From: Catenulispora acidiphila DSM 44928
GTDB lineage: Bacteria > Actinomycetota > Actinomycetes > Streptomycetales > Catenulisporaceae
Assembly: GCF_000024025.1 (NCBI RefSeq)
Contig: NC_013131.1
Location: forward strand, 7,192,001-7,256,000
DNA length: 64,000 nucleotides
Reading direction: 5' to 3'
The number at the start of each line of letters is the position of its first letter. The stretch's first letter is position 1. The translations under genes were made by a program, and so were the position numbers. Positions 36,902-64,000 of the stretch are shown one piece after another. Under the pieces are notes generated by a model. That model searched no databases and had not been told where the DNA came from. It worked only from the letters and a program-made list of their open reading frames with translations.

Positions 36902-37555
36902 ATGACCATCCGGGTCCTCATCTGTGACGAACTGCCGATCATCGGGGACGGCCTTCGGACCCTGCTCGACGCGGTGCCGGACATCGAGGTGATCGGCACG
37001 ACCGACAACGGCATGGAGGCCATCGTCCTGGTGCGCACCGCGCGGCCCGAGGTCGTGGTCACCGACCTGAACCTGCGCACCATCTCCGGCCTGGAGATGA
37101 TCCGCAGACTCGCCAAGGAGGACACCCCACCGAGCATCGTGGTGTTCACCGAAGCCGACGCCGACAAGACCGTCAGCGACGTCCTGCACGCCGGCGTCAG
37201 CTGCCTGCTCGGCAAGGACGCCCGCCCCCAGGAACTGATCGCCGCGATCCAGGCAGCCGCCACCGGCCAGACCGTCCTGGCGCCCAGCATCGCCCAACGC
37301 CTCGTCGGCTGGTTCCGCGCCCAACCCGAACCCCAGGAAGCCGCCATGTGCCCCGGCGCCTCCGAGCTGACCTCCCGCGAGCGCGAAGTGGTCCGCATGG
37401 TCGCCCGCGGCATGTCCACCGAGGAGGTGGCCCGCGAGCTGATCATCGGCGAGGCGACGGTCCGCACACACGTGTACCGAGTGCGGACGAAGCTCGGCGT
37501 ACGGGACCGCGCGGAGCTGGTGTCACTGGCCTACCGCTCAGGACTCATCAACTAG
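36902..37555 (+). CDS. NarL/FixJ-family response regulator
   Basis: A 217-residue two-domain regulator. The receiver domain (residues 1-120) has RVLICDELPIIGDGL with the acidic residue pair reduced to DE, the phosphoacceptor Asp in VVVTDLNLRTISGLEM (about residue 55), Thr in VVFTEAD and Lys in LLGKDA. The C-terminal LuxR helix-turn-helix is LTSREREVVRMVARGMSTEEVARELIIGEATVRTHVYRVRTKLG. No histidine kinase is encoded nearby, so it may be an orphan. GGGAGAAGG precedes the ATG. Its place between the SARP gene and the biosynthetic operons suggests cluster control. Confidence 0.88.
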   Translation: MTIRVLICDELPIIGDGLRTLLDAVPDIEVIGTTDNGMEAIVLVRTARPEVVVTDLNLRTISGLEMIRRLAKEDTPPSIVVFTEADADKTVSDVLHAGVSCLLGKDARPQELIAAIQAAATGQTVLAPSIAQRLVGWFRAQPEPQEAAMCPGASELTSREREVVRMVARGMSTEEVARELIIGEATVRTHVYRVRTKLGVRDRAELVSLAYRSGLIN

Positions 37556-37625
37556 GCACGCACGAGCCGGTCGGATCAGCGTCATGCGATTCCGGCCGGC
37601 GCGACCTCCGAAACACGGCCTCCCC

Positions 37626-39116
37626 CTAGTACCCGACCGGCGCCGCGAGCGCGAACTCCCGCCCAGCAGCAGCCCGCGCCTCCCGCAGACGAGCAGCGCC
37701 GACGATACGCCACAGGGCAGCGGGCTCGCCGTAGCGCGAGGACTCGGCAGCAGCGAGACGGAAGTAGCGATGCAGACCCAGCTCCGCGGTCATCGCCCGC
37801 ACCCCGCAGCTCTGCATGCACAGGCGCAGCACCTCCCGCGCGGTCTCGGCCGCCATCGCAAGGGCGATGACCGGCTCGGTGCTGATGGAGTCGGGCTCGG
37901 CGTCCACCAACCAGGCCGCACGATAGACCGCCGCCCGCGTCGCCCGCAGCGCCACCAGAGCCCGAGCCAGCGGAAACGAGACGGCAGGCAGATCGCGCAG
38001 CCGACTACCGAACTGATGCCGGAAGCCAGTGTGATCCAGCGCAACGCGATGCGCACCCTCGGCAATACCCAGCAGGTACGCCGCCTGCCGCACCCGCGCA
38101 CGAGCCAGCGGATCAGCGAGCGCCTCGGCAGTGGGGGCGACCACATCCGCCGCCGAGACCGGTGTGGCCGCGAAGCGCACGACCGGCGGCCAACACGCGG
38201 TCAGGACACTGACGCCAGGGGCATCGCGGGGCACCGCGACCAGAGCCGGCGCATCAGGATCAGGAAGCGCCACCAGGAACAAGGCGGCTTGGGCATCATC
38301 AACGATCGCGGTACCGGTCAGCTCCCAGCCATCGCCGCGCGGAGCTGCGATGACGCCGCGCGCACCGGGGAGAGCTTCCGTGCCCGCCAGCGCCACGCCT
38401 GCCACGACAGCACCCTGCGACTGCGCAACGCCCGAGCCGCCAGCAGCGCCCGCAGCCCTTGCGACATCTGAGCCGCCCTCGACGCCCGCCGACTTGGCAG
38501 AGCCCGAACCTTCCGCGATCCCCGCCGCAACCGCAGCGCCCGAGCCACCCGCAACGCCCGCCGCGCTCGCAACGCCTGCGCCGCCCCCGATTTTCGCCGC
38601 GCTCGCAATGGCCGAGCCGCCTGCGATCTCCGCCGCACTCGCAACGCCTGCGCCGCCCACGACCTTCCCAGCCCTCGCAACGACCGAGCCGCTCTCTACC
38701 TCCACCGCCCTTGCAATGTTTGCGGCGCCCGCGGTCCCCGTCGTGCTCGCAACGCCTGTGCCGCCCGCGATTCCCACCGCGCTCGCAACGCCTGCGCCGC
38801 TCGCGACCCTCGCCGCATCCTCCGAGGCGGCCGTCCAGCCGAGGTCGGCGGCCATGGCACCTGCGCGGTAGGGGTTGCCGCACGCGGCGCGGCCGAGTTC
38901 CTCGCTGACCAGCGTGCCAGCCGTCAGGCCCAGGTCTAGGCCGCCGGCGAAGGCGGGGCGTTCTAGGTCGGGGGCTTGGAGGGCTTGGAGGGTGGGGTGG
39001 GCGGCGGTTTCTGTTACGGGGGCGCCGTGGAGGTGGGGGTGGGGTGGGATTGCGGTGAGGGCTGTGCGGAGGGTTGTGCGGAGTTGGTGGGAGAGGGGGT
39101 CGGGGGTCGGGTCCAT
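37626..39116 (-). CDS. Acyl-CoA dehydrogenase-like protein with large Ala/Gly repeat insertion
   Basis: A 496-residue acyl-CoA dehydrogenase relative. Residues 1-100 resemble the N-terminal helical domain, about 240-330 the middle beta-domain (GVIAAPRGDGWELTGTAIV, ALFLVALPDPDAPALVAVP), and 335-496 the C-terminal helices (AYLLGIAEGAHRVALDH, HRYFRLAAAESSRYGEPAALWRIV). Residues ~104-237 are an insertion of about eleven imperfect 12-residue repeats (xGVASAAxIAGG) absent from normal family members, which are about 350-380 residues. No catalytic Glu in the usual G-G-x-G/T-S-E context is visible, so it may be the non-catalytic half of a heteromer with the next gene upstream. The gene is last in the lysX-lysK-NRPS-ACAD-ACAD operon. 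Confidence 0.75.
   Translation of the reverse strand: MDPTPDPLSHQLRTTLRTALTAIPPHPHLHGAPVTETAAHPTLQALQAPDLERPAFAGGLDLGLTAGTLVSEELGRAACGNPYRAGAMAADLGWTAASEDAARVASGAGVASAVGIAGGTGVASTTGTAGAANIARAVEVESGSVVARAGKVVGGAGVASAAEIAGGSAIASAAKIGGGAGVASAAGVAGGSGAAVAAGIAEGSGSAKSAGVEGGSDVARAAGAAGGSGVAQSQGAVVAGVALAGTEALPGARGVIAAPRGDGWELTGTAIVDDAQAALFLVALPDPDAPALVAVPRDAPGVSVLTACWPPVVRFAATPVSAADVVAPTAEALADPLARARVRQAAYLLGIAEGAHRVALDHTGFRHQFGSRLRDLPAVSFPLARALVALRATRAAVYRAAWLVDAEPDSISTEPVIALAMAAETAREVLRLCMQSCGVRAMTAELGLHRYFRLAAAESSRYGEPAALWRIVGAARLREARAAAGREFALAAPVGY
38406..38807 (-). repeat. 36-bp in-frame repeat array inside the acyl-CoA dehydrogenase-like gene
   Basis: About eleven diverged copies of a 36-bp unit encode xGVASAAxIAGG-type 12-residue repeats (for example AGVASAAEIAGG, SAIASAAKIGGG, AGVASAAGVAGG). 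Copies differ mainly at silent and conservative positions, and none breaks the frame, so selection has kept the reading frame or the expansion is young. Confidence 0.8.
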
Positions 39117-39126
39117 GGTGTGGTCC

Positions 39127-40272
39127 TTAGGGGAGGGAGTCGAAGGCGGCGGCGACGATGTGGAGCATCACCTCGGAGGTGCCTGCTGAGAGGGTCAGGC
39201 CGGGTGCTTCGCGGTGGGCGGAGTCGAGGATCTTGGCGGGGCGGGTGCGGTTCGCTCGCTGGTCGGGGCTGGGGATGTCGGCGGCCCAGGCGGCGATGCC
39301 CTGCGCGAGTTCGCTGCTGTGGTACTTGGCGACGGCGGCGGCGAGCTGGTCGATGCGGCCTGCTTCGAGGCCGGTGAGTACTTCCCAGGCCAGGGAGTGG
39401 TCGGCGGTGAGTGCGCCGTGCCAGCGCCCGATCTGCTCCAGGTGTGCCGCGTGCGCGGAGTCCGGGTCGCGGTCGACCAGGGCTTCCAGTGCGGTGTCGA
39501 GCCAGCGCTCCGCTTTCAGGTAGTAGTCGAGACCGGTGCGTTCCACCGCGAGCGCCTCGTTCAGCAGTGGCCATCCCTCGTCGCGCGGGCCGATCAGGTC
39601 CGCCGCCGACACCGCCACGCCGTCCAGCTCGACCCGGTGGAAGTGCTCGTCCCCGATGCCGGGGATCATCGACACCGTCACGCCGGGCGCGCGCATGTCG
39701 ACCAGGAACAGGCTGATCCCCTGGTACTTCCCGGCGGTCGGCGTCGTACGGGCCGCGCACAGGCCGAGGTCGACGAAGCGCGTCTTGAGGCTGAAGACCT
39801 TCGTGCCGGTGATGCGGTAGCCGCCGTCACCGTCCGGCTCGGCGACCGTCCGCAGCGCACCGAGATCCGACCCGGCGTCGGGCTCGGTGTAGAGCACTGA
39901 TGCGAAGCTCTCGCCGCGCGCCAAAGCCGGCAGATGCCTGCGCTTCTGCTCCGCGTCGCCGGCCATCAGCAGGAACTGCCCGACGATCTGGATCGTGTTG
40001 ACGTGAAAGGTGTCCGGCACTCCGGCACGCACCAGCTCCTCGGCGAGGATCGCGGCGTCGGTCAGCGGACGTCCCGCCCCGCCGAACTCGACGGGCCAGT
40101 GCACGGCGAGCAATCCCAGCCCGCCGAGCATCCGATACAGCGGACGCGCGTCCGGCTCGACGCCCGCCGCGCCGGTGGCCTGCTCCGCGGCGGCGCGCAC
40201 CTCGGCAGAGCGCAGCGTCCTTCGCACATCCGCCCGGAACCGCTGTTGATCCTCAGTGAATCCGAACCGCAT
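39127..40272 (-). CDS. Acyl-CoA dehydrogenase
   Basis: A 381-residue flavoenzyme of normal family length. It shows HWPVEFGGAGRPLTDAAILAEELVRAG (N-terminal domain), SVLYTEPDAGSDLGALRTVAEPDGDGGYRITGTKVFSLKTRFVDLGLCAART (FAD-contacting middle domain), HRVELDGVAV, and the C-terminal ILDSAHREAPGLTLSAGTSEVMLHIVAAAF, where the AGTSEV segment sits at the flavin. It would introduce an alpha,beta double bond in an acyl-CoA or acyl-carrier substrate. The start is 10 bases from the NRPS stop, and the following dehydrogenase-like gene is 10 bases away, so the three are one operon. In this setting it may make an unsaturated acyl cap for the peptide. Confidence 0.88.
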   Translation of the reverse strand: MRFGFTEDQQRFRADVRRTLRSAEVRAAAEQATGAAGVEPDARPLYRMLGGLGLLAVHWPVEFGGAGRPLTDAAILAEELVRAGVPDTFHVNTIQIVGQFLLMAGDAEQKRRHLPALARGESFASVLYTEPDAGSDLGALRTVAEPDGDGGYRITGTKVFSLKTRFVDLGLCAARTTPTAGKYQGISLFLVDMRAPGVTVSMIPGIGDEHFHRVELDGVAVSAADLIGPRDEGWPLLNEALAVERTGLDYYLKAERWLDTALEALVDRDPDSAHAAHLEQIGRWHGALTADHSLAWEVLTGLEAGRIDQLAAAVAKYHSSELAQGIAAWAADIPSPDQRANRTRPAKILDSAHREAPGLTLSAGTSEVMLHIVAAAFDSLP

Positions 40273-40282
40273 GAAGTACTCC

Positions 40283-43200
40283 TCAACGCGCGAGCGTCTC
40301 TTCGATCGCCGCGACGACCCGGCTCAAAGCCAGCTTCGTGAAAAGGGTGTAGTGGTCACCGGGCACGCGCTCGGCACAGAACCGCCCGGTGCACACCGAC
40401 CGCCACTGTTCGTGCACTGCGACACGCGGCGAGGCGGCGAGCGCCGTGACCGGTCCGCCGTAGGAACCGGGCGGGCTGTACGCCTGCATCGACAGCGCGC
40501 AGGCCCGGAAGGTCTGGAAGCGCGAGTCCAGTTCCTCGTCAGTGAGCTCCAGCCGGACGCCGAGCCCGGTCAGCGTCTCCCTGATGTCGTCCCCGCCGAT
40601 GTCCGGACGCTCCAGCACCGCGCGCACCGCCAACCCGTCACGCCCCGCCAACCGGGCGACGTCGTGCACGAACCGCTGCCGCACCGTCGCCTCGTCCAGC
40701 GGCTCGGTGTCCTCGTCATAGGCGGCATCGAGCAGCACCAACGGCACGCGCCGTCCGATCCGCTCCTCGATCTGCCGCGCGACCTCGAAGGCGAGCACGC
40801 CGCCATAGGACCAGCCGGCCAGGCAGCACGACTCCGGCAACCCGCCGGCGATCAGCGTCTGAGCGATCCGCGCGGCGCTCACCGCCAAGCCCTCGCCCGG
40901 ATCCACAGCGGCGTCCTGGGGATCGGCGGCGAAGCCGACCACCCCGATGTCCTGACGCAGAGCCCTGACCAACGGCATGTAGCAGAAAAGCTCGCCGCCC
41001 GACGGATGCATCAGAATTACCTGCGCCGGACCGGCGGCCCGCATCACCACCGATGCCCGACTGCCTTCTTCGTCCTTCGCGACACTCTGCTCGGCACGAG
41101 CGCGGTCGATGGTCGCAGCCAGGTGCGCGACGGTCGGCGAGACGAAGAAGTCGCCGAGCGAGACCTCCACCCGGAACCGGCGATTGATCGCCGACATCAG
41201 CTGAACCGCCTGCAGGCTGTTGCCGCCCGCGAGGAAGAAGTCGTCGTTCACCCCGAGCCGGGTGGTGCGCAGCAGCGGCGCGAGCACGTCATGCAGCAGC
41301 ACCCGCTCGGTCGCGGTCCGCGCCTCGGCGACCGGCGCACCGACCTCGGCCTGCCCCACCTCGGGCGCGGGCAGGCGACGCCAGTCGACTTTGCCGCTGC
41401 TGGTCAGCGGCATCTCCCCCAGCACTACGAAATACGACGGGATCATGTACGACGGCAGCAGAGTACTGAGATGCTCGCGCAGCGCCGGCACCTGCCCCTC
41501 GGCAATACCGGTCGCGTAGCAGACCAGATGCTTGTCCCCGGCGTCGTCAGCCCACGGCCGCACACTGACCTGCTCGATCCCCGCGAAGCCGGTCACCGCC
41601 GACTCCACCTCGCCCAGCTCGATCCGCAAACCGCGGATCTTGACCTGCTGGTCGATCCGGCCCTGGAACACCAACCGGCCGTCCGCCAGCCGCTTCACCA
41701 GATCCCCGGTGCGGTACAGCCGACCACCGGGAGCAGTACCGAAGGGGTCTGCGATGAACTTCTCCGCGGTCAGCTCGTCGCGATCCAGGTAGCCGCGCGC
41801 TAACCCAGCGCCGCCGATCACCAACTCCCCCGGCACGCCGATCGGCACCGGACGCAGGTCGCGATCGAGCACGTGCGCGACGTGGTTCGCCATGGGCAAC
41901 CCGATCGGCGGCGAGGCGTCCCACGTACCCGCGCACTCCTCGACGATCATCGTCACCGTGCACTCGGTCGGCCCGTAGCCGTTGAACAGCCGCCGCCCCG
42001 GATTCCACCGGTTCACCAGCTCGCCGCTGAACGCCTCGCCGCCGACGAAGGCGATCCGCAGCTCGGTGAACCGCTCCGGCGCCAGCAGCGGCATGACGGT
42101 CGGGGGCAGGTCGATGACCGTGATGCCCGCTCGCTCCATGAGCGCCTGGAGCCGGTCGATGGACAGCCGCTCGTCCTCGGTGGCGATGCACAGGCGCGCG
42201 CCGGTCAGCAACGCGGAAAAGGTCTCGAAGACGGAGACGTCGAAGGTCACCGAGGCGAACCCGAGCATCCGATCAGCGGGCGTCAGCTCGAACAGCTCGC
42301 GCACGGAGTCGATGAAGGCGACCACGCCGCGGTGCTCCAGCAGCACGCCCTTCGGCTTGCCGGTGCTGCCGGAGGTGTAGATGACGTAGGCGACGTCGCA
42401 GGGTTCTGCGGCGAGCGGCACATCGTGCGCGGGCATGACGGCCAGCTCCGCGCGCACCTCGTCCAGCGTCACCACCGGCGCCTCGACCTCGCTGAGGACG
42501 TCGGCGACCGCAGCATGCGTGATGACCGCGCACACCCCGGCGTCTGCGGCGATCTCGGCGACTCGAGCGGAAGGATGCGTGGTGTCGAGCGGCACATAAG
42601 CGGCGCCGGTCTTGAGAACCGCGAGCATCGCCGTCGTCAGGTCCACATTCCGCCGCAGACAGATGCCGACCCTGGCGCCCGGCTCGACACCGCGCTCGCG
42701 CAGCAACGCAGCAAGCCGGTTCGCGCCGGCGTTGAGCTTGGCATAGCTGGTCTCGACACCACCGACGACGACCGCCACAGCGTCGGGAGCTTCCTGGACG
42801 CGCGCCTGGAACTCCTCCACGATCGTCGTCTCGCGGATCGTCCGCACCGGTCCGACGGCGATGTCCGCCAGGAACTCCTGGTCCTCCGGGCTCAGCATCG
42901 CAGCGTCGGACAAGGGAGCGTCGGGAGCGGATGTCAGAGTACTGAGCATGCCGTCGTAGTGGCGCGCGAACCTGGCGATGCTGTCGGCGTCGAACAGTTC
43001 GGTGTTGAACTCGATGCCCAGTGACGCGTCGGCGCCGGGAGCCGTCTGCTCCGTCAGCTGCCAGCTCATGTCGAATCGAGCGGTACCGGGCCGGACAGCT
43101 TCTCGAGAAGTGTCGATGCCGGGCAGGGCAGGTGTGGTCACCGCGTTCTGCACGTCGAAAACGATCTGGAAGATCGGCGAGCGGGACGGATCGCGAGCCG

Positions 43201-44326
43201 GCTCAACGGCGTCGAGCAGCTTGCCGAACGGCAGTCCGCCGTCCCCGTCCACGTCCGCGAGGTCTGAAGCGCGCTTGACCCGATGGACCAACTCGCGAAA
43301 GGTCGGATCGCCGGAGACATCCAGTCGCAGAACCCGCATATCAGTGAACTGTCCGACCGCCGAGGACAGCGCCTCGTGCCGCCGCCGCTCCTGCGGCGCG
43401 CCGATCACCAGATCAGTCAGCCCGGAGTAGCGGTGCAGCACCGTGAAGAACGCGGCGGCGAGCACGTCGAACCGGCTCACACCCTCTTCTCGAGCCAGCT
43501 TCCACGCCTTTTCCCAGCCCTGGTGACCGACCGCGAAATCAGCGGTCGCGCCGACATGAGTCTGGGTATCGCCGCGCGGCCGATCGGTCGGGAACTCCAG
43601 GACTTCGGCGCCCGCCAACGCGCTGCGCCAGTGCGCGACCAGCGTGTCCAGCTCGCCGGCATCGAGCCGATCGCGTTGCCAGAGCGCGTAATCCGGATAC
43701 TGCACGGGAAGATCAGGGACCTGTGGTGCCTCGCCGTCGCGCGAAGCCCGGTAGAACTCGCCGAGTTCGCGGATCAGGACGCCGTGCGACCAGGTGTCGC
43801 ACACCATGCGGGACACGTCGAAGGCGAACAAGTGGTCGTCCGCGGCGACCCTGACCAACGTCGCGCGCCACGGCGGCGTCCGGCTCAGGTCGAACGGCGT
43901 CCCCGCCTCCCGGTCGATCAGGGCGCGCGCGTCCAGAAGCCGCCGCTCGTGGTCCTGCCCGTCAGCCTCGATCACCGCGAGCCTGACCGGGACGTCGCCG
44001 GCGATCACCTGGACGAAGCCGCCCTCGCGTTCCACGATCGCCGTCCGCAGCGCGTCGTGCCGGGCCACGAGCGCGGCCAGCGCCAAGCGCAGCGCGTCCA
44101 CATCGAGGTCGCCGCGCAGCCGCAGGCACAGCGGAGTGCCCGGGGCAGAACTCTGCGAAGCGGACCGAAGCGTCTGTTGTTCCTGGGTCAGCGGCACGGG
44201 ACCGGCGTCCCGGCGCGGCACGGGTCCGCGCGCGGCGGCGACCCGCGCCTGCTCTTCCAGCCGTGCCAGGAACCGCGCGCGGCGCTGCGCGGGCAGCGCG
44301 GCGAACCGCCGGCTCATGTCCGTCAC
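40283..44326 (-). CDS. Single-module NRPS (C-A-T-TE) with degenerate condensation motif
   Basis: A ~1347-residue synthetase: condensation-like domain (~45-470), adenylation (~505-1010; YTSGSTGKPKG, FDVSVFETF, NGYGPTE, YRTGD, and Lys in TSSGKVDWR), carrier domain (FFLAGGNSLQAVQL, Ser phosphopantetheinylation) and type I thioesterase (GWSYGG Ser). The C-domain HHxxxDG is replaced by SRMVCDT, losing both His (about residue 172). Hand alignment to GrsA gives the A-domain code D-V-F-D-F-G-G-V-T-K, which I cannot match to a standard amino acid. GTG at 44326 is preferred because AAAGGGGAG lies 7 bases upstream; a GTG at 44362 overlapping the lysK stop is the alternative. It probably joins the carrier-derived amino acid to a partner and releases it. 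Confidence 0.9.
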   Translation of the reverse strand: MTDMSRRFAALPAQRRARFLARLEEQARVAAARGPVPRRDAGPVPLTQEQQTLRSASQSSAPGTPLCLRLRGDLDVDALRLALAALVARHDALRTAIVEREGGFVQVIAGDVPVRLAVIEADGQDHERRLLDARALIDREAGTPFDLSRTPPWRATLVRVAADDHLFAFDVSRMVCDTWSHGVLIRELGEFYRASRDGEAPQVPDLPVQYPDYALWQRDRLDAGELDTLVAHWRSALAGAEVLEFPTDRPRGDTQTHVGATADFAVGHQGWEKAWKLAREEGVSRFDVLAAAFFTVLHRYSGLTDLVIGAPQERRRHEALSSAVGQFTDMRVLRLDVSGDPTFRELVHRVKRASDLADVDGDGGLPFGKLLDAVEPARDPSRSPIFQIVFDVQNAVTTPALPGIDTSREAVRPGTARFDMSWQLTEQTAPGADASLGIEFNTELFDADSIARFARHYDGMLSTLTSAPDAPLSDAAMLSPEDQEFLADIAVGPVRTIRETTIVEEFQARVQEAPDAVAVVVGGVETSYAKLNAGANRLAALLRERGVEPGARVGICLRRNVDLTTAMLAVLKTGAAYVPLDTTHPSARVAEIAADAGVCAVITHAAVADVLSEVEAPVVTLDEVRAELAVMPAHDVPLAAEPCDVAYVIYTSGSTGKPKGVLLEHRGVVAFIDSVRELFELTPADRMLGFASVTFDVSVFETFSALLTGARLCIATEDERLSIDRLQALMERAGITVIDLPPTVMPLLAPERFTELRIAFVGGEAFSGELVNRWNPGRRLFNGYGPTECTVTMIVEECAGTWDASPPIGLPMANHVAHVLDRDLRPVPIGVPGELVIGGAGLARGYLDRDELTAEKFIADPFGTAPGGRLYRTGDLVKRLADGRLVFQGRIDQQVKIRGLRIELGEVESAVTGFAGIEQVSVRPWADDAGDKHLVCYATGIAEGQVPALREHLSTLLPSYMIPSYFVVLGEMPLTSSGKVDWRRLPAPEVGQAEVGAPVAEARTATERVLLHDVLAPLLRTTRLGVNDDFFLAGGNSLQAVQLMSAINRRFRVEVSLGDFFVSPTVAHLAATIDRARAEQSVAKDEEGSRASVVMRAAGPAQVILMHPSGGELFCYMPLVRALRQDIGVVGFAADPQDAAVDPGEGLAVSAARIAQTLIAGGLPESCCLAGWSYGGVLAFEVARQIEERIGRRVPLVLLDAAYDEDTEPLDEATVRQRFVHDVARLAGRDGLAVRAVLERPDIGGDDIRETLTGLGVRLELTDEELDSRFQTFRACALSMQAYSPPGSYGGPVTALAASPRVAVHEQWRSVCTGRFCAERVPGDHYTLFTKLALSRVVAAIEETLAR

Positions 44327-54949: not shown

Positions 54950-56845
54950 ATGCAGCCCGAATCCCATGCTCCAGGCGTCGGGACGGCGACCATGGTGCCC
55001 TCGCCGTTCTCAGTCCTGGACGACACAGCCTCCTATGCTGCGGCCGTTGAGGAGTTCCTCAGCGCGCCCTCGTCCGCGACCGTCCCGGTGTGGACCGGCG
55101 GACGGGCTGACCTCGCAGCCTCCGTCGAGCGTTCGGTCTCCCTATACGGGGAGGTCAGTCGGCCGGTGGCGCGCACGTACGGCATCGTGCTCAAGCCCGA
55201 GGCGCTGCCGGCCGGTCTGGTCTCGCTGATCGCGCCGTGCGCGCGCACCTGGCTCGGCGAGGACGAGCTCGGTGCGGCGCTGCTCGACGAGCTTTGGGCG
55301 CGGCAGACCGACGGCGGCGTGTACACGCTGCTGATCGCCGGGCTCTACGAGCACTTCACGGTGGATCTCATCTGGCCGCTGGTGCGGGCCGCGGCGCGGC
55401 GGCCGGAGGTGCGGCTGACGTTCCTCACCGGCCGGGACGCGGCTTCGCTGGCGTGGTTCACGGCGAAGCAGTACGTCCACACCGCCTCCGACGTGCGCGA
55501 GCTCGGGATGTTCACCGGCGTCGACCGGGGGTTCGTCCACAGCGGCGTCCACGTGCGCGACGAGCGCGGGCTCGAGACCGCGGACGTCAAGACCGAGATC
55601 TTGGACACCCGCTGGCGGCGGCTGTTCCTGCAGGGGCATGGCAAGGACGACTCGCTGAACCTCGCCGACTTCACCATCTGCGGGCTGAACGAGGCGGTGG
55701 CGCGCGACAACGCGCTCATCGCGCCGATCTGCGCCACGACAGGGCTCTGTTACAAGCCCATGGACAAGCTGATCCAGCTGCGGGACGTGCGGGCGGCGGA
55801 GGTCGTGCTGAGCTCGTGCAACAACAGCCCGTTCTCCGACGCGGCGGTCTACGACCCGAAGTACCAGCTGATGCTGAACGCGATCGACGGGACCGCGAAG
55901 GACATCGTGGGCGCGATCTCGGTGCACGACTCGGGGCGCGCGGAGAACAGCGCGTGGACGCAGGCCGCCTTGGCGCACGCCTCCTCGGTCAGCGCGCTCA
56001 ACACGAGCATCGGCAAGGCGGAGGCGTTCCCCGCCTACGTGCACTTCGGCATGGGCGACGACACGGGAGTCGCGCCGGAGCCGCCGGACATCGCGCCGGA
56101 ACCACTGCTGCTCACCACCGCCGCGCGCCTCACCGCGTACCTGGCCGGCGGACTGCTGTCCCCCAACAACCCGCTGCGCACCCGCTTCGGCAAGCTCGCG
56201 GCGAAGGTCGAGAACCAGGTCAGCCGCCGCGACCTGGCAGTCCACCAGGACCGCACCGCGACGCTGCGCAGCCTGGTCGACGACCTGCAATCGCTGGACA
56301 TGGCGGTGGCGACGCAGTTCGTGAAGGACCCCGACAACGAACTGAGCAACTGCTTCGCCTACTTCGGCGACCGCAGCCGCATCGACATGGACTCCATCAG
56401 CCACATCCGCTGCCAATGCGGCCGCCCCGCCGAACGCTACATCCGGCGCAGCCTCGTCCCCACCGCCCTGGACACCGAGGGCATCGTCTGCACCCGCTGC
56501 GGCGACGTGGCCTTCCGCCTCCCCAACTCCCCCGCCCTCCTGCTGCACACCGACGAAGTCGCCACCCAGGGCAGCACCCTGCAAGTCCGCGTCGCAGTCC
56601 GCGAAGCCCGCCCCGGCATCCTGCGCGCCGGCCTCTTCTTCGCCGCCTACGGCCGCGAGGAGTGCACCATCACCCCCGACCTGCGCAAGGTCCGCATCGG
56701 CGCGAGCGGCGAAGGCGAGGCGGAGTTCACGCTGACCCTGGCGCCGGACATGGCGTGCCAGGGCTACTACATGACCGCCTACGCGGTGCAGGACCTGGCC
56801 GTGTCGATCGCGCGGCGGAACTTCGGGGTCGTGCCTGCGCGCTGA
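54950..56845 (+). CDS. Unknown protein with caspase-like His/Cys dyad and zinc ribbon
   Basis: A 631-residue soluble protein of no named family that I recognise. The middle third has the clan CD (caspase/gingipain/CHAT) pattern: hydrophobic strand then His-Gly in LFLQGHGKDDSLNL (His230), and hydrophobic strand then Ser-Cys in EVVLSSCNNSPFSDA (Cys290). Upstream, YTLLIAGLYEHFTVDLIWPLV and RLTFLTGRDAASL suit the preceding Rossmann-like strands. A four-Cys site follows, CQC at 488-490 and CTRC at 514-517, then a beta-rich C-terminal domain (~540-631). AAGGAG precedes the ATG at 54950. It may be a protease or an acyl-transfer enzyme acting on the carrier or product; function is inferred only. Confidence 0.65.
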   Translation: MQPESHAPGVGTATMVPSPFSVLDDTASYAAAVEEFLSAPSSATVPVWTGGRADLAASVERSVSLYGEVSRPVARTYGIVLKPEALPAGLVSLIAPCARTWLGEDELGAALLDELWARQTDGGVYTLLIAGLYEHFTVDLIWPLVRAAARRPEVRLTFLTGRDAASLAWFTAKQYVHTASDVRELGMFTGVDRGFVHSGVHVRDERGLETADVKTEILDTRWRRLFLQGHGKDDSLNLADFTICGLNEAVARDNALIAPICATTGLCYKPMDKLIQLRDVRAAEVVLSSCNNSPFSDAAVYDPKYQLMLNAIDGTAKDIVGAISVHDSGRAENSAWTQAALAHASSVSALNTSIGKAEAFPAYVHFGMGDDTGVAPEPPDIAPEPLLLTTAARLTAYLAGGLLSPNNPLRTRFGKLAAKVENQVSRRDLAVHQDRTATLRSLVDDLQSLDMAVATQFVKDPDNELSNCFAYFGDRSRIDMDSISHIRCQCGRPAERYIRRSLVPTALDTEGIVCTRCGDVAFRLPNSPALLLHTDEVATQGSTLQVRVAVREARPGILRAGLFFAAYGREECTITPDLRKVRIGASGEGEAEFTLTLAPDMACQGYYMTAYAVQDLAVSIARRNFGVVPAR

Positions 56846-57555: not shown

Positions 57556-58692
57556 TCACCCGACGTCGGCGGTCTCGCGCCAGTGCTCGGCGGCGGCCGT
57601 CGGGTCGAGGGTGGGGGCTTCGGCGGCGAGGAGCATCAGGCGGGCGAAGGTGGGGCTGGCGGCTGCGGGGTCGCCGCCGGCTTTGCGCCATTGGCGGTAT
57701 TTGGCGGCGTAGCTGATGACCGTCTCCTTGTCGCGGCGGGAGTGGGGGCGGGTGAAGGCGCCGGCCCAGAGGCCGTCCCAGGCGGCGTAGCCGGGGTCGC
57801 GGAGCATGACGCGGTGGGCTCGGGCGAGGTTCCAGTGGGGGATGCCGGTGTTCAGGTGGTGGACCAGGTGGTAGCGGTCGTTGTGGCGGCTGATCAGGAA
57901 CCATTCGAGGAAGCGGCCGTGGCGGTTGCGGGTCAGCAGGAGCGGTTGCTTCTCGCTTTCGGGCATCGGGTAGTGCTCGGAGAGTTCGGCGAGCCAGCCG
58001 ATGGCGGCGTTGGTGGTCAGGAGGGGGACGAACCAGAACAGGGCCAGTTGCGGGAGCCAGCCGAACCAGGCGCACAGGCCGATGATGGCGGTCCACTGGG
58101 TGAGCAGGACTATGCGTTCGGTGCGCAGGGATATGGGGACTGAGACCGTGTTCTTGGAGCCGTCGTAGAAGATGCGCTCGCGGGCGACGTAGCCGATGTA
58201 GTCGACGGTGCGCAGACCCAGGACCGACAGGATCAGGTCCTTGTAGAAGAAGTGGCGGTCGGAGCGTTCGATGTCGTACAGGCCGCACTCGATGTGGAAG
58301 CTGTAGTCGGGATCGTCCTTGGCATCGCCCAGGTTGCGGTGGTGGTTGCCCACATGCGAACTGCGATAGGGCCCGTACAGGTGCCAGACCAGGTAGCCGG
58401 CGAAGACCGAGCCGCCGATCAGGTTCAGCGTCTTGTTCCGGGCGAGCACCTTGTGCGAGGACTCGTGCAGGAAGTGCGCCATGAAGCGCTGCGTGGAGCC
58501 GATCACGATGAGCGCCACCGGATAGAACCAGTACGAGCCGGCGACGCACAGCGCGACGGAGGCGGCGATCAGCGCGTACTCGAAGAGGATCGCCAGCGGG
58601 CCGTGGTAGTCGTCGAGACGGCACAGTTCCCGGAGTTCCTTTTTCACCCCGGGATCCAGCCGATCGAAATTCAGTTGCTCGATTGCGGACAT
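57556..58692 (-). CDS. Fatty acid desaturase-like membrane di-iron enzyme
   Basis: A 378-residue membrane protein with helix pairs (ALIAASVALCVAGSYWFYPVALIVIG and LLTQWTAIIGLCAWFGWLPQLALFWFVPLLTT) and three histidine boxes: HFLHESSH, HVGNHH and HLVHH. The boxes bind the di-iron centre of PF00487 desaturases and hydroxylases. ATG at 58692 (MSAIEQLNFDRL) is chosen; the frame continues 43 codons upstream into the divergent promoter. Substrates in secondary metabolism can be carrier-bound amino acids as well as lipids, so it may desaturate or hydroxylate a precursor. It is divergent from the ATP-grasp ligase gene and has a strong terminator. Confidence 0.85.
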   Translation of the reverse strand: MSAIEQLNFDRLDPGVKKELRELCRLDDYHGPLAILFEYALIAASVALCVAGSYWFYPVALIVIGSTQRFMAHFLHESSHKVLARNKTLNLIGGSVFAGYLVWHLYGPYRSSHVGNHHRNLGDAKDDPDYSFHIECGLYDIERSDRHFFYKDLILSVLGLRTVDYIGYVARERIFYDGSKNTVSVPISLRTERIVLLTQWTAIIGLCAWFGWLPQLALFWFVPLLTTNAAIGWLAELSEHYPMPESEKQPLLLTRNRHGRFLEWFLISRHNDRYHLVHHLNTGIPHWNLARAHRVMLRDPGYAAWDGLWAGAFTRPHSRRDKETVISYAAKYRQWRKAGGDPAAASPTFARLMLLAAEAPTLDPTAAAEHWRETADVG

Positions 58693-58891: not shown

Positions 58892-60097
58892 ATGAAATCC
58901 GTGCTCATCCTCTCCTGGAAAGCCATAGGCAACGTGGCGCCCGCGGTCAAGGAACTGCGGGCCCGAGATCTGCGGCCGGTCCTGGTCTCCAATCTCCCGG
59001 ACGACCCCAACGCCATCCTGTGCGACGAGCACGTCGTCTTCGACTGGGACCGCGAGCAGCTCCCGGCTCTCCTGGCCCGCCTCGACGAGCGCGCCCTGGA
59101 CCTGGTCGGCGCCGTCAACATGGTCGAGAAGCTGATCGGCTGGCACCACGCGGTCACCGCGCACTACGGCCTGCCCGGCGGCGACGCCGGCCGCCTCGCG
59201 ATCGCGAGCAAGACCGCGGTCCGGGACCGGATGCGGGCCCTGGGCCTGTCGGACATCAAGTACGCCGGCGAGGCGGACGCGCCCGAGACCGTGGACTTCT
59301 TCCCCGCGATCGTCAAACCCGCGCGCGTGTCAGGAGCCTCATACCTGGTCCGCCGCGTCGACGACCTCGCCGAGTTGCTCGCCTATCGGCAGCAGCTGGC
59401 GGACTCCGGAGCCGGCGACATCGAGATGATCGTCGAGGAGTACCTGTCCGGAACCGAGTTCTCCGTGGACGGCCCGGTAGTCCGCGGCCGCTTCCACCCG
59501 GTCCTCGCGGTGGAGAAGCCCGACCACAACGAGGTCACGCACCACGACGCCGGCCTGGAGTTCCACCCGCCGCAGAGCGACCACGTCCGCGAGGGCGTGC
59601 GCGTCTTGTGCGAGACCGTCAGCACCCTGTGTACCGACCTCGGCCTGGACCAGCTCTGGCTGCACTTCGAAGGACGGAGCTCCGCCGACGGCCGCACCGA
59701 GCTCATCGAGATCAACCCCCGGCCCGGCGGCGGCCAGATCCCCAAAGCGGTCCAGGAGATCAGCGGCATCGACGCGATCGAGGCGGTCGTCTCCATGTCC
59801 CTGGGCGTCTACACACCGGAGAACCTGGGACCGCTGCGCGAGCAGCCGATCATCGGCTGGATGGACGTGGAGGCCTACGAGGTCGGCACGGTCGACGTCG
59901 CCAGCAGCGAAGCCGACTTGCTGGCGCTGCCCGGCGTCATCAACATCAAGCTTCTCAACGGCTTCCAGATCAAGAGCCTGGACATCGAGAACTTCTTCTT
60001 CTCCTTCGCGGTGGTCGCCGATTCGGTCGACCAGCTGCGCGCTCACGCCGCGACCGTCTTGGAGACCCTCGACTATCGCGTCGTGCCGGCGGAGTGA
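58892..60097 (+). CDS. ATP-grasp carboxylate-amine ligase
   Basis: A 401-residue ATP-grasp enzyme. N-terminal domain: MKSVLILSWKAIGNVAPAVKEL; ATP-grasp core: ASKTAVRDRMRALGLSDIKYAG, FPAIVKPARVSGASYLVRRV, MIVEEYLSGTEFSVDG, and metal/ATP site LIEINPRPGGGQIP; C-terminal region GVINIKLLNGFQIKSLDIENFFFSFAVVADS. This matches the L-amino acid ligase/dapdiamide-synthetase-like group, which joins an amino acid to another amine through an acyl-phosphate. ATG at 58892 begins the canonical fold; earlier in-frame starts add 28 nonconserved residues. It probably makes a peptide bond outside the NRPS. Confidence 0.88.
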   Translation: MKSVLILSWKAIGNVAPAVKELRARDLRPVLVSNLPDDPNAILCDEHVVFDWDREQLPALLARLDERALDLVGAVNMVEKLIGWHHAVTAHYGLPGGDAGRLAIASKTAVRDRMRALGLSDIKYAGEADAPETVDFFPAIVKPARVSGASYLVRRVDDLAELLAYRQQLADSGAGDIEMIVEEYLSGTEFSVDGPVVRGRFHPVLAVEKPDHNEVTHHDAGLEFHPPQSDHVREGVRVLCETVSTLCTDLGLDQLWLHFEGRSSADGRTELIEINPRPGGGQIPKAVQEISGIDAIEAVVSMSLGVYTPENLGPLREQPIIGWMDVEAYEVGTVDVASSEADLLALPGVINIKLLNGFQIKSLDIENFFFSFAVVADSVDQLRAHAATVLETLDYRVVPAE

Positions 60098-60208: not shown

Positions 60209-60778
60209 TCAGCGCTTGAGAGTAAACGTGAAGTCGCTGGAGAGCTTCCCTCCCAGTTTGGCCGTCGAGACGACCTTCCCGTCGGCGATCAGCCGGTCGA
60301 CCTCGCTGCGCGACAGACCGCAGCCCTCTGCGATCAGCTTCACCGGACGCACGGGGATCTGCGCCGCGAAGCGGACCGTGACGTCCCTGCCCTCGTGGCT
60401 GACGTGCCCCGGCGCGCCGGTGTCCAGGCGCCACGCGTCGCCCCAGTCGAGCGCGACGCGGTTGCGGTGCCGGACGCCGGGATCCTGCAGTAGTTCGGCG
60501 GCCAGGGTGGTGTCGTTGTCGTGCAGCCGCCGCAGCACCTCGGGCTTTATCGCGCGCACGTTGGTCCGCTCCATGACCGTGAGCTTCGTGGTCTCGCCGC
60601 AGCCGATGCACAGCGCCAGGAGCCAGACGTCGAGGAGCTTGTGGTTCGCGTTGACGCGGAATTTGCCGTTCGCCCGGAAGGTTTCCGAGCCGCACACATG
60701 GCAGATCCGGCGAATGAGCGGCAGTCCGACGGGCTCGATCACCCAATTCTCGGGCACGGGAAACACACCCTGTTCCAT
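60209..60778 (-). CDS. DUF1062 family protein
   Basis: A 189-residue protein with two CxxC pairs (CHVCGSETFRANGKFRVNANHKLLDVWLLALCIGCGET, about residues 27-62) forming a zinc ribbon, a central helical region (LRRLHDNDTTLAAELLQDPGVRHRN), and a C-terminal segment LSRSEVDRLIADGKVVS resembling an S4/HTH-like RNA or DNA contact. This is the DUF1062 family, widespread and uncharacterised. Start ATG at 60778; the upstream 200 bases separate it from the LysY-like gene. It may be an unrelated resident within the cluster or a small regulator. Confidence 0.75.
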   Translation of the reverse strand: MEQGVFPVPENWVIEPVGLPLIRRICHVCGSETFRANGKFRVNANHKLLDVWLLALCIGCGETTKLTVMERTNVRAIKPEVLRRLHDNDTTLAAELLQDPGVRHRNRVALDWGDAWRLDTGAPGHVSHEGRDVTVRFAAQIPVRPVKLIAEGCGLSRSEVDRLIADGKVVSTAKLGGKLSSDFTFTLKR

Positions 60779-60976: not shown

Positions 60977-62008
60977 ATGGTGCGAGTGACGGTGGCCGGT
61001 GCGGCCGGCTATATCGGCGGGGAATTGCTGCGGCTGCTGCTGGGACATCCCGAGATCGAGGTGGTCGGCGCGGTGTCGTCCCGGTTCCCGGGCCGGCGGA
61101 TCGACGGCGTGCATCCGAATCTGCGCTCTGCCACCGATCTGTCCTTCTGCGCGACCGAGGACGTCCCCGAAAGCGACGCGGTGTTCCTGGCGCTGCCGCA
61201 CCGGGTCGCGATGACCCAGATCGAGCAGTGGACGCAGCGCTCGAAGCTCGTCATCGACCTGACCGGGGACTTCCGGCTCGACGACACCGCGGTCTACGAG
61301 CGCTACTACGACGAAGAGCATCAGGCTCCGCATTTGCTGGACGAGTTCACCCCCGGCCTTCCGGAGTTGTATCGCGACCAGCTGCGCACCGCGGACCTGA
61401 TCAGCGTTCCCGGCTGCATGGCCACCGCCGGCGTGCTCGCGCTGTATCCCTTGGTGGCGCACGATCTGATCGATCCGGAGCAGGGCGCGCAGTTCGACGC
61501 CCGCACCGGGTCCAGCGGCTCGGGCGCGACCGCCGGACCGGCCAACCTGCACGCCGAACGCAGCGGCGCGATGCGCGTGTTCGCCCCCACCCGACACCGG
61601 CACGAGGCGGAGATCTCCCGGCATCTGGGCCTGTCCGCGGCGATGACGGCGACCGGAGTCGAGGCGGTGCGCGGCGCTCAGAGCCTGTGCCACGCCACGC
61701 TGCGCGAAGGTGTGGACGAGCAACAAGTCCGGCGCGCGTTCCGCCGGCAGTACTCCGCCGAACCCTTCGTCCGCGTCGTGGCGCACCAGCGCGGCATCCA
61801 CCGCTACCCCGACCCGAAGATCCTGCTCGGCTCCAACTTCTGCGACGTCGGCTTCGCCGTGGACGCCGACACCGGCCGGCTGACCACGATCGCGGCCCTG
61901 GACAACCTCGTCAAAGGCGGCGCCGGCAACGCCCTGCAATGCCTCAACATCCGCCTGGGCCTGCCCGAGACCCTCGGCCTGTCTTTCCCCGGCCTGCACC
62001 CGCTGTAG
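60977..62008 (+). CDS. lysY: LysY/ArgC-type N-acyl-glutamyl-phosphate reductase
   Basis: A 343-residue NADPH-dependent reductase. The Rossmann motif is VTVAGAAGYIGGELLRLLLGHPEIEVVGAVSS (about residues 4-35); the catalytic Cys is in VPGCMATAGVLALYPL (about residue 145), in the GCxATA form of the LysY group rather than the GCNPTA of plain ArgC. It reduces the carrier-bound glutamyl phosphate to the semialdehyde, the transketolase acceptor. ATG at 60977 starts the conserved domain; the frame is open 29 codons upstream without homology. It is followed at 41 bases by the kinase, so the two are an operon out of normal reaction order. Confidence 0.9.
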   Translation: MVRVTVAGAAGYIGGELLRLLLGHPEIEVVGAVSSRFPGRRIDGVHPNLRSATDLSFCATEDVPESDAVFLALPHRVAMTQIEQWTQRSKLVIDLTGDFRLDDTAVYERYYDEEHQAPHLLDEFTPGLPELYRDQLRTADLISVPGCMATAGVLALYPLVAHDLIDPEQGAQFDARTGSSGSGATAGPANLHAERSGAMRVFAPTRHRHEAEISRHLGLSAAMTATGVEAVRGAQSLCHATLREGVDEQQVRRAFRRQYSAEPFVRVVAHQRGIHRYPDPKILLGSNFCDVGFAVDADTGRLTTIAALDNLVKGGAGNALQCLNIRLGLPETLGLSFPGLHPL

Positions 62009-62049: not shown

Positions 62050-62922
62050 GTGACCAGCAAACCGCTCACCGTCGTCAAGTGCGGCGGCAATCCCGCCGTG
62101 GACGCCGCCGGCATCTGTGCCGACATCGCCCGCCTCGTCCGCGAGGACCGCTCCGTCCTGCTCGTCCACGGCGGCTCCGGCGAGATCGGGCGCCTGGCCG
62201 GCCGGCTCGGCGTCCCGCAGCGCACCCTCGTCGCCCCCGACAACGTGTCCACCCGGTACACCGACCCGGACACCCTCGAGGTGGTCATCCTGGCGTTGGC
62301 CGGCGCGGTCAAACCCCGACTCATCGCGGAACTGGCGCGCCACCGGGTGCCCGCCGTCGGCCTCACCGGCATGGACTGCCGCATGCTCCGCGCCCAGCGC
62401 AAGTCCGCCGTGCGCTCCGTCGTCGACGGCCGGACCGTGTTGGTCCGGAACAACCTCAGCGGCCGGATCACCACCGTGGACACCGGGCTTCCCAGAACCC
62501 TGCTTCACGCCGGCTACGTCCCGGTGGTCTCACCGCCCGCCATCGACGAGCACGACCAGGCGGTCAACGTCGACGCCGACCGCGCTGCCGCCGCACTGGC
62601 CGCAGCCCTCGGCGCGGAGGAGCTGCTGCTGCTCACCGGCGCGCCGGGCGTGCTCGCCGATCCCGACGACCCCGGCAGCGTGCAAAGCAGCATCCAGATA
62701 TCCCCCACCGGCGCCCCTGATCCGTCCGCCCGAGGCGGCATGGCGCTCAAACTCATCGCCGCGCGCGAGGCGCTTGCCGGCGGCGTCGGATCCGTCCGCA
62801 TCGCCGACGGGCGCATCCCCGAACCCGTCAGCCGCACACTCGCGGGGGCTGGCACCACAGTGCACATCTCCCGCGCGGAATCGCCGAACCACAGCTCACG
62901 TGAAAGGGAGATCCGCCGATGA
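62050..62922 (+). CDS. lysZ: LysZ/ArgB-type acylglutamate kinase for carrier substrate
   Basis: A 290-residue amino-acid kinase. It has VVKCGGNPAVDAAGICADI (phosphate loop), LLVHGGSGEIGRLAGRLG (Gly-rich acyl-binding loop, in which GP is replaced as in LysZ-type), ALAGAVKPRLIAEL, PAVGLTGMDCRML, PVVSPPAIDEHDQAVNVDADRAAAALAAALGAEELLLLTGAPGV and GGMALKLIAAREAL. It phosphorylates the gamma-carboxyl of glutamate held on the carrier. GTG at 62050 has GGAG 5 bases upstream. A ~15-residue polar C-terminal tail (SPNHSSREREIRR) overlaps the next start (ATGA), linking it directly to the PAPS kinase gene. Confidence 0.9.
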   Translation: MTSKPLTVVKCGGNPAVDAAGICADIARLVREDRSVLLVHGGSGEIGRLAGRLGVPQRTLVAPDNVSTRYTDPDTLEVVILALAGAVKPRLIAELARHRVPAVGLTGMDCRMLRAQRKSAVRSVVDGRTVLVRNNLSGRITTVDTGLPRTLLHAGYVPVVSPPAIDEHDQAVNVDADRAAAALAAALGAEELLLLTGAPGVLADPDDPGSVQSSIQISPTGAPDPSARGGMALKLIAAREALAGGVGSVRIADGRIPEPVSRTLAGAGTTVHISRAESPNHSSREREIRR

Positions 62923-63482
62923 GCGCATCGAATGGCACGCCGGAGAAGCGGCCCGGAGGCACGGTCTGGCTGACCGGGCTGCCCAGCGCCGGCAAGAGCA
63001 CCATCGCGATCGGTCTGGCCGAGCGCCTGCGCGCTGACGGGCACCGGGTCCAGGTGCTCGACGGCGACGAGGTCCGCGCCGCCCTCTCCCCCGACCTGGG
63101 GTTCTCGAAGGAGGACCGGGACACCAGCGTGCGGCGAATCGGCTACGTCGCCGAACTGCTCGCCGAGCACGGCGTGACGGTGGTCGTGCCGGTCATCGCG
63201 CCGTACGCGATGTCGCGCGAGGCGGTCCGGGACCGGCACGCGGCGCGCGACGTCCCGTATCTGGAAGTGCATGTCGCCACGCCGGTGGAGGTCTGCGCCG
63301 ACCGCGATGTGAAGAGCCTCTACGCGCGGCAGGCCGCGGGCGAAATCAGTGGTCTGACAGGCGCGGACGACCCCTACGAAGTGCCGGTCGACCCCGATCT
63401 GCGGATCCACACGCAGCACCAGACGGTCGAGGAGTCGGTGCGCAACGTGCGGGCGCTGCTCACGGCGCGGGGTCTGGCGTGA
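62919..63482 (+). CDS. cysC: Adenylylsulfate kinase CysC
   Basis: A 187-residue kinase that phosphorylates APS at the 3' hydroxyl to give PAPS. P-loop: GLPSAGKSTIA (about residues 21-31), followed by VLDGDEVRAALSPDLGFSKEDRDTSVRRIGYVAELLAEHG, the DGD and RR.G segments that bind APS, and VPVIAPYAMSREAVRDRH. The C-terminus YARQAAGEISGLTGADDPYEVPVDPDL is standard. It is a stand-alone cysC, unlike cysN-cysC fusions. The ATGA overlap with the lysZ-like gene ties PAPS supply to the carrier pathway, as expected if the sulfotransferase at 46573 uses it. Confidence 0.95.
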   Translation: MSASNGTPEKRPGGTVWLTGLPSAGKSTIAIGLAERLRADGHRVQVLDGDEVRAALSPDLGFSKEDRDTSVRRIGYVAELLAEHGVTVVVPVIAPYAMSREAVRDRHAARDVPYLEVHVATPVEVCADRDVKSLYARQAAGEISGLTGADDPYEVPVDPDLRIHTQHQTVEESVRNVRALLTARGLA

Positions 63483-63540
63483 TCCCCCTCGGGTGGACGG
63501 CTGCGTGGGAGTTCGGCGATCAGCGCGAGGGGGTCCGCGG

Positions 63541-64000
63541 ATGACTGTCGTGGATACCGTTCGGACCCGCCGCCCCTCGGGTCCGCTGCGCCTGTCCCAC
63601 CTCGACGCGCTCGAGTCCGAGGCGGTGCACATCTTCCGTGAGGCCGCGGCCGAGTTCGAGCGTCCGGTGCTGCTGTTCTCCGGCGGCAAGGACTCGATCG
63701 TCATGCTGCACCTGGCAGCCAAGGCTTTCTGGCCCGAGCGCGTGCCCTTCGGTCTGCTGCATGTGGACACCGGGCACAACTTCCCGGAGGTGCTGGAGTT
63801 CCGCGACCGCGCCGTCGCCGAGGCCGGTGTGCGGCTTGAGGTCGCTCGGGTCCAGGACTACATCGACGACGGACGGCTGCGCGAGCGCGCGGACGGGACG
63901 CGCAATCCGTTGCAGACCGTGCCGCTGCTGGACGCCATCAACGCGCACCGCTTCGACGCCGTCTTCGGCGGCGGACGGCGCGACGAGGAGAAGGCGCGGG
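63541..64000 (+). CDS. cysD: Second CysD (sulfate adenylyltransferase small subunit), partial
   Basis: The first 153 codons of a CysD run to the right edge. The ATP-pyrophosphatase motif VLLFSGGKDSIVMLHLAAKAFWP and downstream blocks LHVDTGHNFPEV, ARVQDYIDDGRL, NPLQTVPLLDAIN and FGGGRRDEEKAR match the copy at 17402-18319 at most positions but are clearly diverged, so this is a separate paralogue dedicated to the cluster. A cysN partner is expected beyond the window. ATG at 63541 is preceded by GAGGG 5 to 9 bases upstream. Together with cysC it forms a PAPS-producing cassette. Confidence 0.92.
   Translation, partial: MTVVDTVRTRRPSGPLRLSHLDALESEAVHIFREAAAEFERPVLLFSGGKDSIVMLHLAAKAFWPERVPFGLLHVDTGHNFPEVLEFRDRAVAEAGVRLEVARVQDYIDDGRLRERADGTRNPLQTVPLLDAINAHRFDAVFGGGRRDEEKAR

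Follow-up and report, generated by a model that had tools for sequence, protein, structure and literature searches.

Genes of the carrier-protein core

The window analysed here, a 64,000-nt stretch corresponding to positions 7192001-7256000 of the single 10,467,782-bp contig of Catenulispora acidiphila DSM 44928, carries genes for biosynthesis on an amino-group carrier protein (AmCP) and very probably directs synthesis of a small, aziridine-containing peptide that reacts with DNA. Genes were called with a codon-usage script in the window and the 34 kb downstream of it, and the called proteins were scanned with Pfam and NCBIfam; genes beyond position 64000 are given in window numbering. The carrier is a LysW-type protein (52273-52452, +; Pfam PF21344, 45.6 bits) with two CxxC motifs and a C-terminal EDWGE, which we take to be the motif of LysW-type carriers. 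Together with it were found a LysX-type ATP-grasp ligase predicted to load glutamate onto LysW (45441-46280, -; Pfam LysX_preATP_grasp; TIGR02144, 273.2 bits, slightly below the cut-off of 275.6), a LysK-type M20 hydrolase predicted to act in release from LysW (44359-45444, -; Pfam; best NCBIfam match [LysW]-lysine hydrolase, 346.8 bits, slightly below the cut-off of 363), a LysY/ArgC-type phosphate reductase (60977-62008, +; Pfam; TIGR01850, 352.7 bits, above cut-off), a LysZ-type kinase (62050-62922, +; Pfam; NF010659, [LysW]-aminoadipate kinase, 243.9 bits, above the cut-off of 223), a DegT-family aminotransferase (49135-50433, +; Pfam and NCBIfam) and a transketolase split into an N-terminal (50430-51281, +) and a C-terminal half (51278-52276, +), both recognised by Pfam.

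This core is accompanied by a sulfotransferase (46600-47328, +; Pfam PF19798) proposed to sulfate diamino-dihydroxyheptanoate (DADH) at O7, for which a PDB search returned no convincing relative, and by genes for supply of 3'-phosphoadenosine 5'-phosphosulfate (PAPS). The latter encode CysC, an adenosine 5'-phosphosulfate kinase (62919-63482, +; Pfam), CysD, the small subunit of sulfate adenylyltransferase (63541-64479, +, crossing the window edge at 64000; TIGR02039, 458.9 bits, cut-off 396.6), and CysN, beyond the window edge (64480-65829; above the CysN subfamily cut-off). Two adjacent genes encode homologues of AziU2/Azi28 (47432-48019, +; 195 aa; PDB 8gs1_A, E 4.1e-52, and 7wuw_A, E 4.8e-52), without a Pfam match, and of AziU3/Azi29 (48021-49073, +; BtrH_N by Pfam; PDB 7wuw_C, E 6.2e-73, and 8gs1_B, E 1.1e-72), and are predicted to be the aziridine-forming subunits. 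The AziU3/U2 pair is reportedly the aziridine-forming catalyst, going by the title of a 2022 paper, and its counterparts in the vazabitide cluster are presumably Vzb10/11. This homology gives the strongest support for the prediction of an azabicycle or aziridine. In the excerpts of published work cited here by PMC identifier, the solved structure of the AziU3/U2 complex has (5S,6S)-O7-sulfo DADH as its ligand (PMC11168924), and an azinomycin review describes a route in which DADH is sulfated and the sulfate then displaced to give the aziridine, with the AmCP as an alternative to N-acetyl protection (PMC9570651). Weak matches to AziU2 were also seen elsewhere in Catenulispora (L008-L029, L denoting loci and G genomes in our comparison; 22-31% identity, E 3.4e-11 to 8.6e-6), most of them inside long open frames, with C. 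acidiphila examples at 5047037, 5671586 and 5998830; a larger family may share the AziU2 fold.

The LysW/X/Y/Z genes might instead serve primary lysine or arginine biosynthesis, an alternative that the first-pass annotation of this DNA had itself raised and with which the matches of LysZ and LysY to LysW-pathway and ArgC models would agree. This is very improbable, since a separate ArgB gene scoring above cut-off (6306977) and nine other genes with a Transket_pyr domain lie elsewhere in the C. acidiphila genome, any LysW was found in only 2 of 10 Catenulispora genomes (C. acidiphila and G008), and the sulfotransferase and AziU2/U3 genes stand in the same gene block.

On the minus strand lie two acyl-CoA dehydrogenase (ACAD) genes and a single-module nonribosomal peptide synthetase (NRPS). 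ACAD1 (37626-38693; PDB 8hk0_C, E 3.4e-80) is a homologue of one chain of Fic32-33; its start was set from a 356-aa orthologue in G008, the open frame extending to 39116. ACAD2 (39127-40272; PDB 8hk0_A, E 4.6e-200) is an orthologue of the other chain, and its structural model (pLDDT 68.4, moderate confidence) led by Foldseek to PDB 8HK0 with 78% identity, an entry entitled as the Fic32-33 complex from Streptomyces ficellus NRRL 8067. S. ficellus reportedly carries the ficellomycin cluster, according to a 2017 title by Liu. By this orthology the ACAD pair is a known component of azabicycle clusters and not an oddity, and the two genes can no longer be counted among unfamiliar extras, as the first-pass annotation had done. 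That annotation had predicted an AmCP-dependent route to an aziridine or azabicycle, which the AziU2/AziU3 homologues and the Fic32-33-type pair, judged by homology, strongly support; every gene it had named (LysW, LysX, LysZ, LysY, LysK, the split transketolase, DegT, sulfotransferase, PAPS genes and one-module NRPS) was recovered by Pfam or NCBIfam, as were its extra 2-oxoglutarate (2OG) oxygenase and ATP-grasp ligase. The AziU2/AziU3 pair, the Fic32-33 orthology and a hydrazone cassette past the window edge had been missed.

The NRPS (40283-44362; Pfam and motif reading) has condensation (C), adenylation (A), thiolation (T) and thioesterase (TE) domains in the order C-A-T-TE. Its A-domain pocket reads D V F D F G G V T at positions 235, 236, 239, 278, 299, 301, 322, 330 and 331, taken by motif, two of them by eye, in what we assume to be GrsA numbering. 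The C domain lacks HHxxxDG and has SRMVCDT at that place. Loss of the HH pair suggests that a single amino acid is loaded on this module, modified there and released, with no condensation step. From its sequence, then, the NRPS is probably non-condensing and holds an amino acid for dehydrogenation and ring closure.

Hydrazone cassette and extent of the cluster

The window edge cuts the cluster, which probably extends to about 86.6 kb in window numbering, about 22 kb beyond the edge. Downstream of CysN, and on the minus strand throughout, lie genes for an MFS protein (66493-67785), a carrier protein (67853-68122), a KSIII-like protein (68142-69089), an alpha/beta hydrolase (69091-70026), a C45 hydrolase (70027-71067), a GNAT protein (71058-71675), an 87-aa protein (71680-71943), an AMP ligase (71933-73462), a 662-aa cupin-MetRS protein (73455-75443) in which the Pfam scan gave no carrier-domain match, a DAO-type oxidase (75440-76546), a lysine N-hydroxylase (76549-77856) and a third ACAD (77945-79096). 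The 87-aa protein, which has a GITSL motif and a weak NCBIfam match to a PfaA stretch, may be a second small carrier, as read from that motif. Six Pfam families, PF02770, PF13434, PF01266, PF00501, PF13302 and PF03417, all fall between 70.0 and 79.1 kb; an excerpt of a 2026 Nature paper (PMC13061610) gives the same six as a recognition set for hydrazone clusters. According to excerpts of an azaserine study (PMC10445470), such enzymes carry out succinylation, loading, desuccinylation, dehydrogenation and KSIII transfer.

The left end of the cluster is probably a SARP/AfsR-type regulator with BTAD, NB-ARC and TPR domains (33603-36671, +; Pfam). Homologues of it (39-41%) lie near an orthologous response regulator in the Streptomyces genomes G030, G026 and G013. 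The C. acidiphila response regulator, of the LuxR family (36902-37555, +; Pfam), has orthologues (80-84%) adjoining ACAD genes in the same three genomes and in L054 and L055. The bounds first assigned to the cluster, 36902-64000, fall short of both the probable start at 33603 and the probable end at about 86.6 kb. The cluster is real, and its genes form open frames of ordinary length.

Related clusters and linkage of the two halves

Relatives were sought in one scan of genome contigs with an AziU3 alignment, which returned 32 loci: 18 at 73-82%, three at 54-61% and 11 at 36-42% identity. The 18 close loci are from Streptomyces, Micromonospora, Catellatospora, Herbidospora and one Micromonosporaceae metagenome-assembled genome. 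AziU3, DegT and both transketolase halves are present in all 18, AziU2 in 17 (not called in L046) and the sulfotransferase in 17 (not called in L041). LysW was found in 15 within the stretch examined, and a wider view added a sixteenth, L060; it was not seen for L045 and L049 within the stretch examined. Since a genome-wide search found LysW only once in C. acidiphila, and AziU3, DegT and the transketolase halves recur together in every close locus, the gene set is not a chance assembly.

The A-domain pocket is identical in 16 clusters, comprising the window, 14 of the 18 close loci and G008; outside this comparison are L041, L052 and L053, with no NRPS in the stretch examined, and L051, with NRPSs only 38% and 34% identical. 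The catalytic HH pair of the C domain is lost in 15 of these 16 clusters, the first histidine alone being kept in L044, L046, L054 and L055.

A second group of AziU2/U3 clusters is free of LysW and comprises those of C. rubra DSM 44948 (L062, 6077-20952), G009:C36 (L033-L034), L061 and L063-L071. AziU3 is 36-42% identical in these, the NRPS modules have intact C domains, with HHxxxDG retained in all 14 NRPS proteins called, and the A pocket is nearly the same, by eye, in at least one module. Seven of 11 LysW-free loci showed the ACAD pair (L062 only in a wider stretch). Of the two loci scanned, L062 and L065, both have a GNAT gene and L065 an M20 peptidase. No LysW match was found in C. rubra (G003) or G009, where an N-acetyl protecting group may take the place of the carrier.

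Linkage of the azabicycle core to the hydrazone cassette was followed through cupin-MetRS in 30 genomes (those of L061, L066 and L069 are not among them). A copy with at least 77% identity is present in eight, C. acidiphila included, and a 65% copy in a ninth, S. niger (G015); the remaining genomes reach at most 38%. In five of the eight (C. acidiphila, G000; G030; G018; G013; G026) AziU3 and cupin-MetRS lie on one contig, 17.0-43.1 kb apart, and in three (G008, G022, G023) on different contigs. The G008 core contig stops some 11 kb past AziU3, directly after the ATP-grasp gene, and its cassette contig starts with the DUF1062 gene, which is next in order in C. acidiphila; since the gene order matches, the split most likely arose in assembly. 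In G022 and G023 the core contigs, at 17 and 20 kb, are too short to show linkage. The two gene sets are also interleaved, with KSIII and hydrolase genes between LysY and LysW in G030 and with LysYZ-CysCDN adjoining the cassette in G018 and G030. Genomes with a close cupin-MetRS account for six of the 18 close loci (L043, L048, L052, L053, L056, L060).

After the cassette, from 79444 to about 86648, both Catenulispora clusters carry a block encoding methylaspartate-mutase S- and E-like proteins, whose matches fall below the NCBIfam cut-offs, a solute-binding protein, an EamA exporter, an aspartate-semialdehyde dehydrogenase (383.5 against a cut-off of 324.2), an aspartokinase whose match covers the kinase part alone and a clavaminate-synthase/GntD/VioC-like oxygenase. 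Synteny between the two species continues past the block, so that its membership in the cluster is a candidate assignment only. In L041 and L045 a MutE homologue with 34% identity stands no more than 10 kb from AziU3. This glutamate-mutase block is a possible supply of a building block derived from 3-methylaspartate. In the linked Streptomyces clusters of G030, G026 and G013 (L073-L074, L077-L078, L084) other genes replace it: in G030 their products resemble, as judged by eye, homoserine acetyltransferase, a cystathionine-synthase-like pyridoxal-phosphate enzyme, glutamine amidotransferase and a HisC-like aminotransferase, with genes of similar size and order at that place in G026 and G013. 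The partner amino acid probably differs between the Streptomyces and Catenulispora versions.

Gene identities, linkage and the loss of the C-domain motif were observed directly. We read the region, with a probability of about 0.75, as one secondary-metabolite cluster, spanning roughly 33603 to 86.6 kb, whose product is a small peptide bearing two reactive units. Several observations weigh against this reading. For twelve of the 18 close loci the genome has no cupin-MetRS exceeding 65% identity, so the halves are separable and the azabicycle core is a portable unit; in S. niger the 65% copy lies on another contig than the core, whose own contig, at 638 kb, is long enough to show linkage. An excerpt of PMC10445470 has an azaserine-type homologue from S. 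niger in use in azaserine work, and the 65% copy would then belong to a separate azaserine-like cluster; it stays a case without linkage. Both observations would suit two neighbouring independent clusters, one in the window for a ficellomycin- or vazabitide-like azabicycle and one beyond it for a hydrazone or diazo compound. Such an arrangement is improbable given the five genomes of eight with both on one contig and genes interleaved, even though the other three differ, and given that s56-p1, discovered by AmCP genome mining, carries a hydrazone, as stated in the title of Matsuda 2017 cited in PMC13061610 and PMC11705231. Other points tell against the single cluster or its assumed chemistry. 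The NRPS of L042, otherwise the same, retains both histidines of HHxxxDG, as do the diverged NRPSs of L051; MutE scores 173.3 against a cut-off of 390.1 and, in the 30 genomes searched, turns up in 14, for the most part at a distance from the core; orthology is the ground for presuming the azabicycle step and the part taken in it by the ACADs; the papers searched gave no product of C. acidiphila DSM 44928; and no AlkZ-like resistance gene is present inside the cluster, the seven AlkZ-like DNA glycosylase genes of the genome (7142121 and six other sites) all lying outside it.

Other window genes, proposed product and known systems

A 2OG-Fe dioxygenase (52453-53184, +; Pfam PF10014; weak HilB match, 24.2 bits) is probably an amino-acid hydroxylase. 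Two short-chain dehydrogenases follow, the first (53203-54018, +; Pfam) with an orthologue (89%) seen only in G008 among the clusters compared, the second (54015-54770, +; Pfam) with 73-78% homologues in G030, G026, G018, G013 and G022. The gene first described as desaturase-like (57556-58692, -) does belong to the fatty-acid-desaturase family by Pfam; its nearest match is the amino-acid hydroxylase GntB, an arginine gamma-hydroxylase (NF041365, 293.7 bits, below the cut-off of 380). An ATP-grasp ligase (58892-60097, +; Pfam ATP-grasp_4; weak dapdiamide synthase match) with 58-60% homologues in G030, G026, G018 and G013 may form the peptide bond in place of the NRPS. A DUF1062 protein (60209-60742, -; Pfam) recurs in linked clusters, with 68-80% homologues in the G013, G026, G022 and G008 stretches. 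A 631-aa protein (54950-56845, +), previously called caspase-like, has the His-Gly/Cys pattern behind that name in QGHG (228-231) and LSSC (C290) and gave no Pfam, NCBIfam or PDB match; its structure prediction (pLDDT 34.4) has no usable fold. It was found in four of 30 related-cluster genomes and, among 396 genomes of the phylum, in its own alone. As a side observation, its family, with QGHG and LSSC conserved, occurs in the genomes searched solely next to the AmCP core described here or the hydrazone cassette, in five genomes (C. acidiphila, G008, Catellatospora paridis, S. alkaliphilus and S. spiramenti).

For C. acidiphila we infer the following chemistry, order of steps and final structure. 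LysX would load glutamate onto LysW; LysZ, LysY, the split transketolase and DegT would convert the LysW-bound glutamate to DADH, which the sulfotransferase would sulfate at O7 with PAPS. The AziU2/U3 homologues would expel the sulfate to close the aziridine, and LysK would free the product from LysW. The NRPS A domain would load the freed amino acid onto its own T domain, where the Fic32-33-type pair would desaturate it, so that the aziridine nitrogen closes a 1-azabicyclo[3.1.0]hexane and the TE domain releases it. In the other branch, the lysine N6-hydroxylase, cupin-MetRS and DAO-type oxidase would make hydrazinoacetic acid, from which GNAT, AMP ligase, carrier protein, C45 hydrolase and third ACAD would form a carrier-bound hydrazonoacetyl group, to be moved by the KSIII-like transferase. 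The ATP-grasp ligase would join the two units, possibly via a 3-methylaspartate-derived amino acid from the Catenulispora-specific block. The product suggested, tentatively, is an undescribed dual-warhead dipeptide that links an azabicyclic aziridine to a hydrazonoacetyl (or, one oxidation further, diazoacetyl) group via the 3-methylaspartate-derived amino acid, the NRPS acting as a non-condensing workbench on which the ACAD pair closes the azabicycle.

The pathway might also stop before the bicycle, leaving open-chain DADH, its sulfate or a simple aziridine in the product. In an excerpt of PMC13266690 the formula of s56-p1 is C16H26N6O9S, and we would read its sulfur as a retained sulfate or a thiol adduct, which would suit such a shorter route; since the Fic32-33-pair and AziU2/U3 homologues are full-length open frames, this outcome appears unlikely. 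If the reading as one cluster with two reactive units is right, a sequenced type strain offers an ordered route to a compound pairing an aziridine azabicycle with an N-N unit, both of them rare. The comparison of 32 loci distinguishes a portable azabicycle core from interchangeable partner modules, the question of how the second ring closes receives a testable answer (on the carrier of an NRPS with a decayed condensation domain, by the Fic32-33 pair), and AziU2/U3, the ACAD pair and the A-domain pocket become markers for genome mining.

Among known systems, ficellomycin has guanidino and valine parts and shares with C. acidiphila the ACAD pair homologous to Fic32-33 (8HK0; 78% for ACAD2); to our knowledge a hydrazone cassette is not part of it. 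Azinomycin B (azi) has AziU2 and AziU3 and the route from DADH over the sulfate to the aziridine in common with C. acidiphila, but its AziU3 scores 249 bits against 590-685 bits for eight orthologues of the C. acidiphila type, and its naphthoate and epoxide parts have no counterpart among the annotated genes. In the published excerpts, the ficellomycin cluster (fic, Streptomyces ficellus) is BGC0001593 (PMC11851569), and vazabitide A (vzb) is formed by conversion of AmCP-borne glutamate to an azabicycle (PMC9570651), a route that C. acidiphila would share, judged by description. Azaserine (azs) and triacsin (tri) have the N-hydroxylase, cupin-MetRS, DAO, GNAT, AMP ligase, carrier protein, ACAD, C45 hydrolase and KSIII in common with the downstream cassette; in contrast, no Cy-domain serine NRPS or polyene polyketide synthase acceptor is present among the C. 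acidiphila genes scanned, the cupin-MetRS differs from AzsN in having no carrier-domain match, and the cassette is joined to a LysW core.

The first-pass annotation had found the combination of genes unfamiliar and its product probably a new member. No report of a product from C. acidiphila DSM 44928 was found in the open-access literature among the matches listed; of those matches, only PMC7347517 names Catenulispora, and there, in the excerpt, the strain is already cited as the source of the closest homologues of Spb38-40 (Spb38, 85% identical). Only in part does the view of an unfamiliar combination hold: the ACADs are members of the ficellomycin set, already known, the half of the cluster beyond the window is a known hydrazinoacetate cassette, and the two, taken together with the core, make the cluster resemble that of s56-p1 (spb, Streptomyces sp. 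SoC090715LN-17; BGC0001764 in PMC11705231, BGC0001746 in PMC11851569). According to published excerpts, s56-p1 was reached by mining for AmCP machinery, and its cluster has lysine N-hydroxylase, cupin-MetRS and DAO genes. In C. acidiphila a LysW core and hydrazinoacetate genes stand in one cluster, as the spb type would have them, spb being likened through published identities, and the C. acidiphila cluster is an unstudied relative of the ficellomycin and s56-p1 clusters with tailoring specific to the strain.

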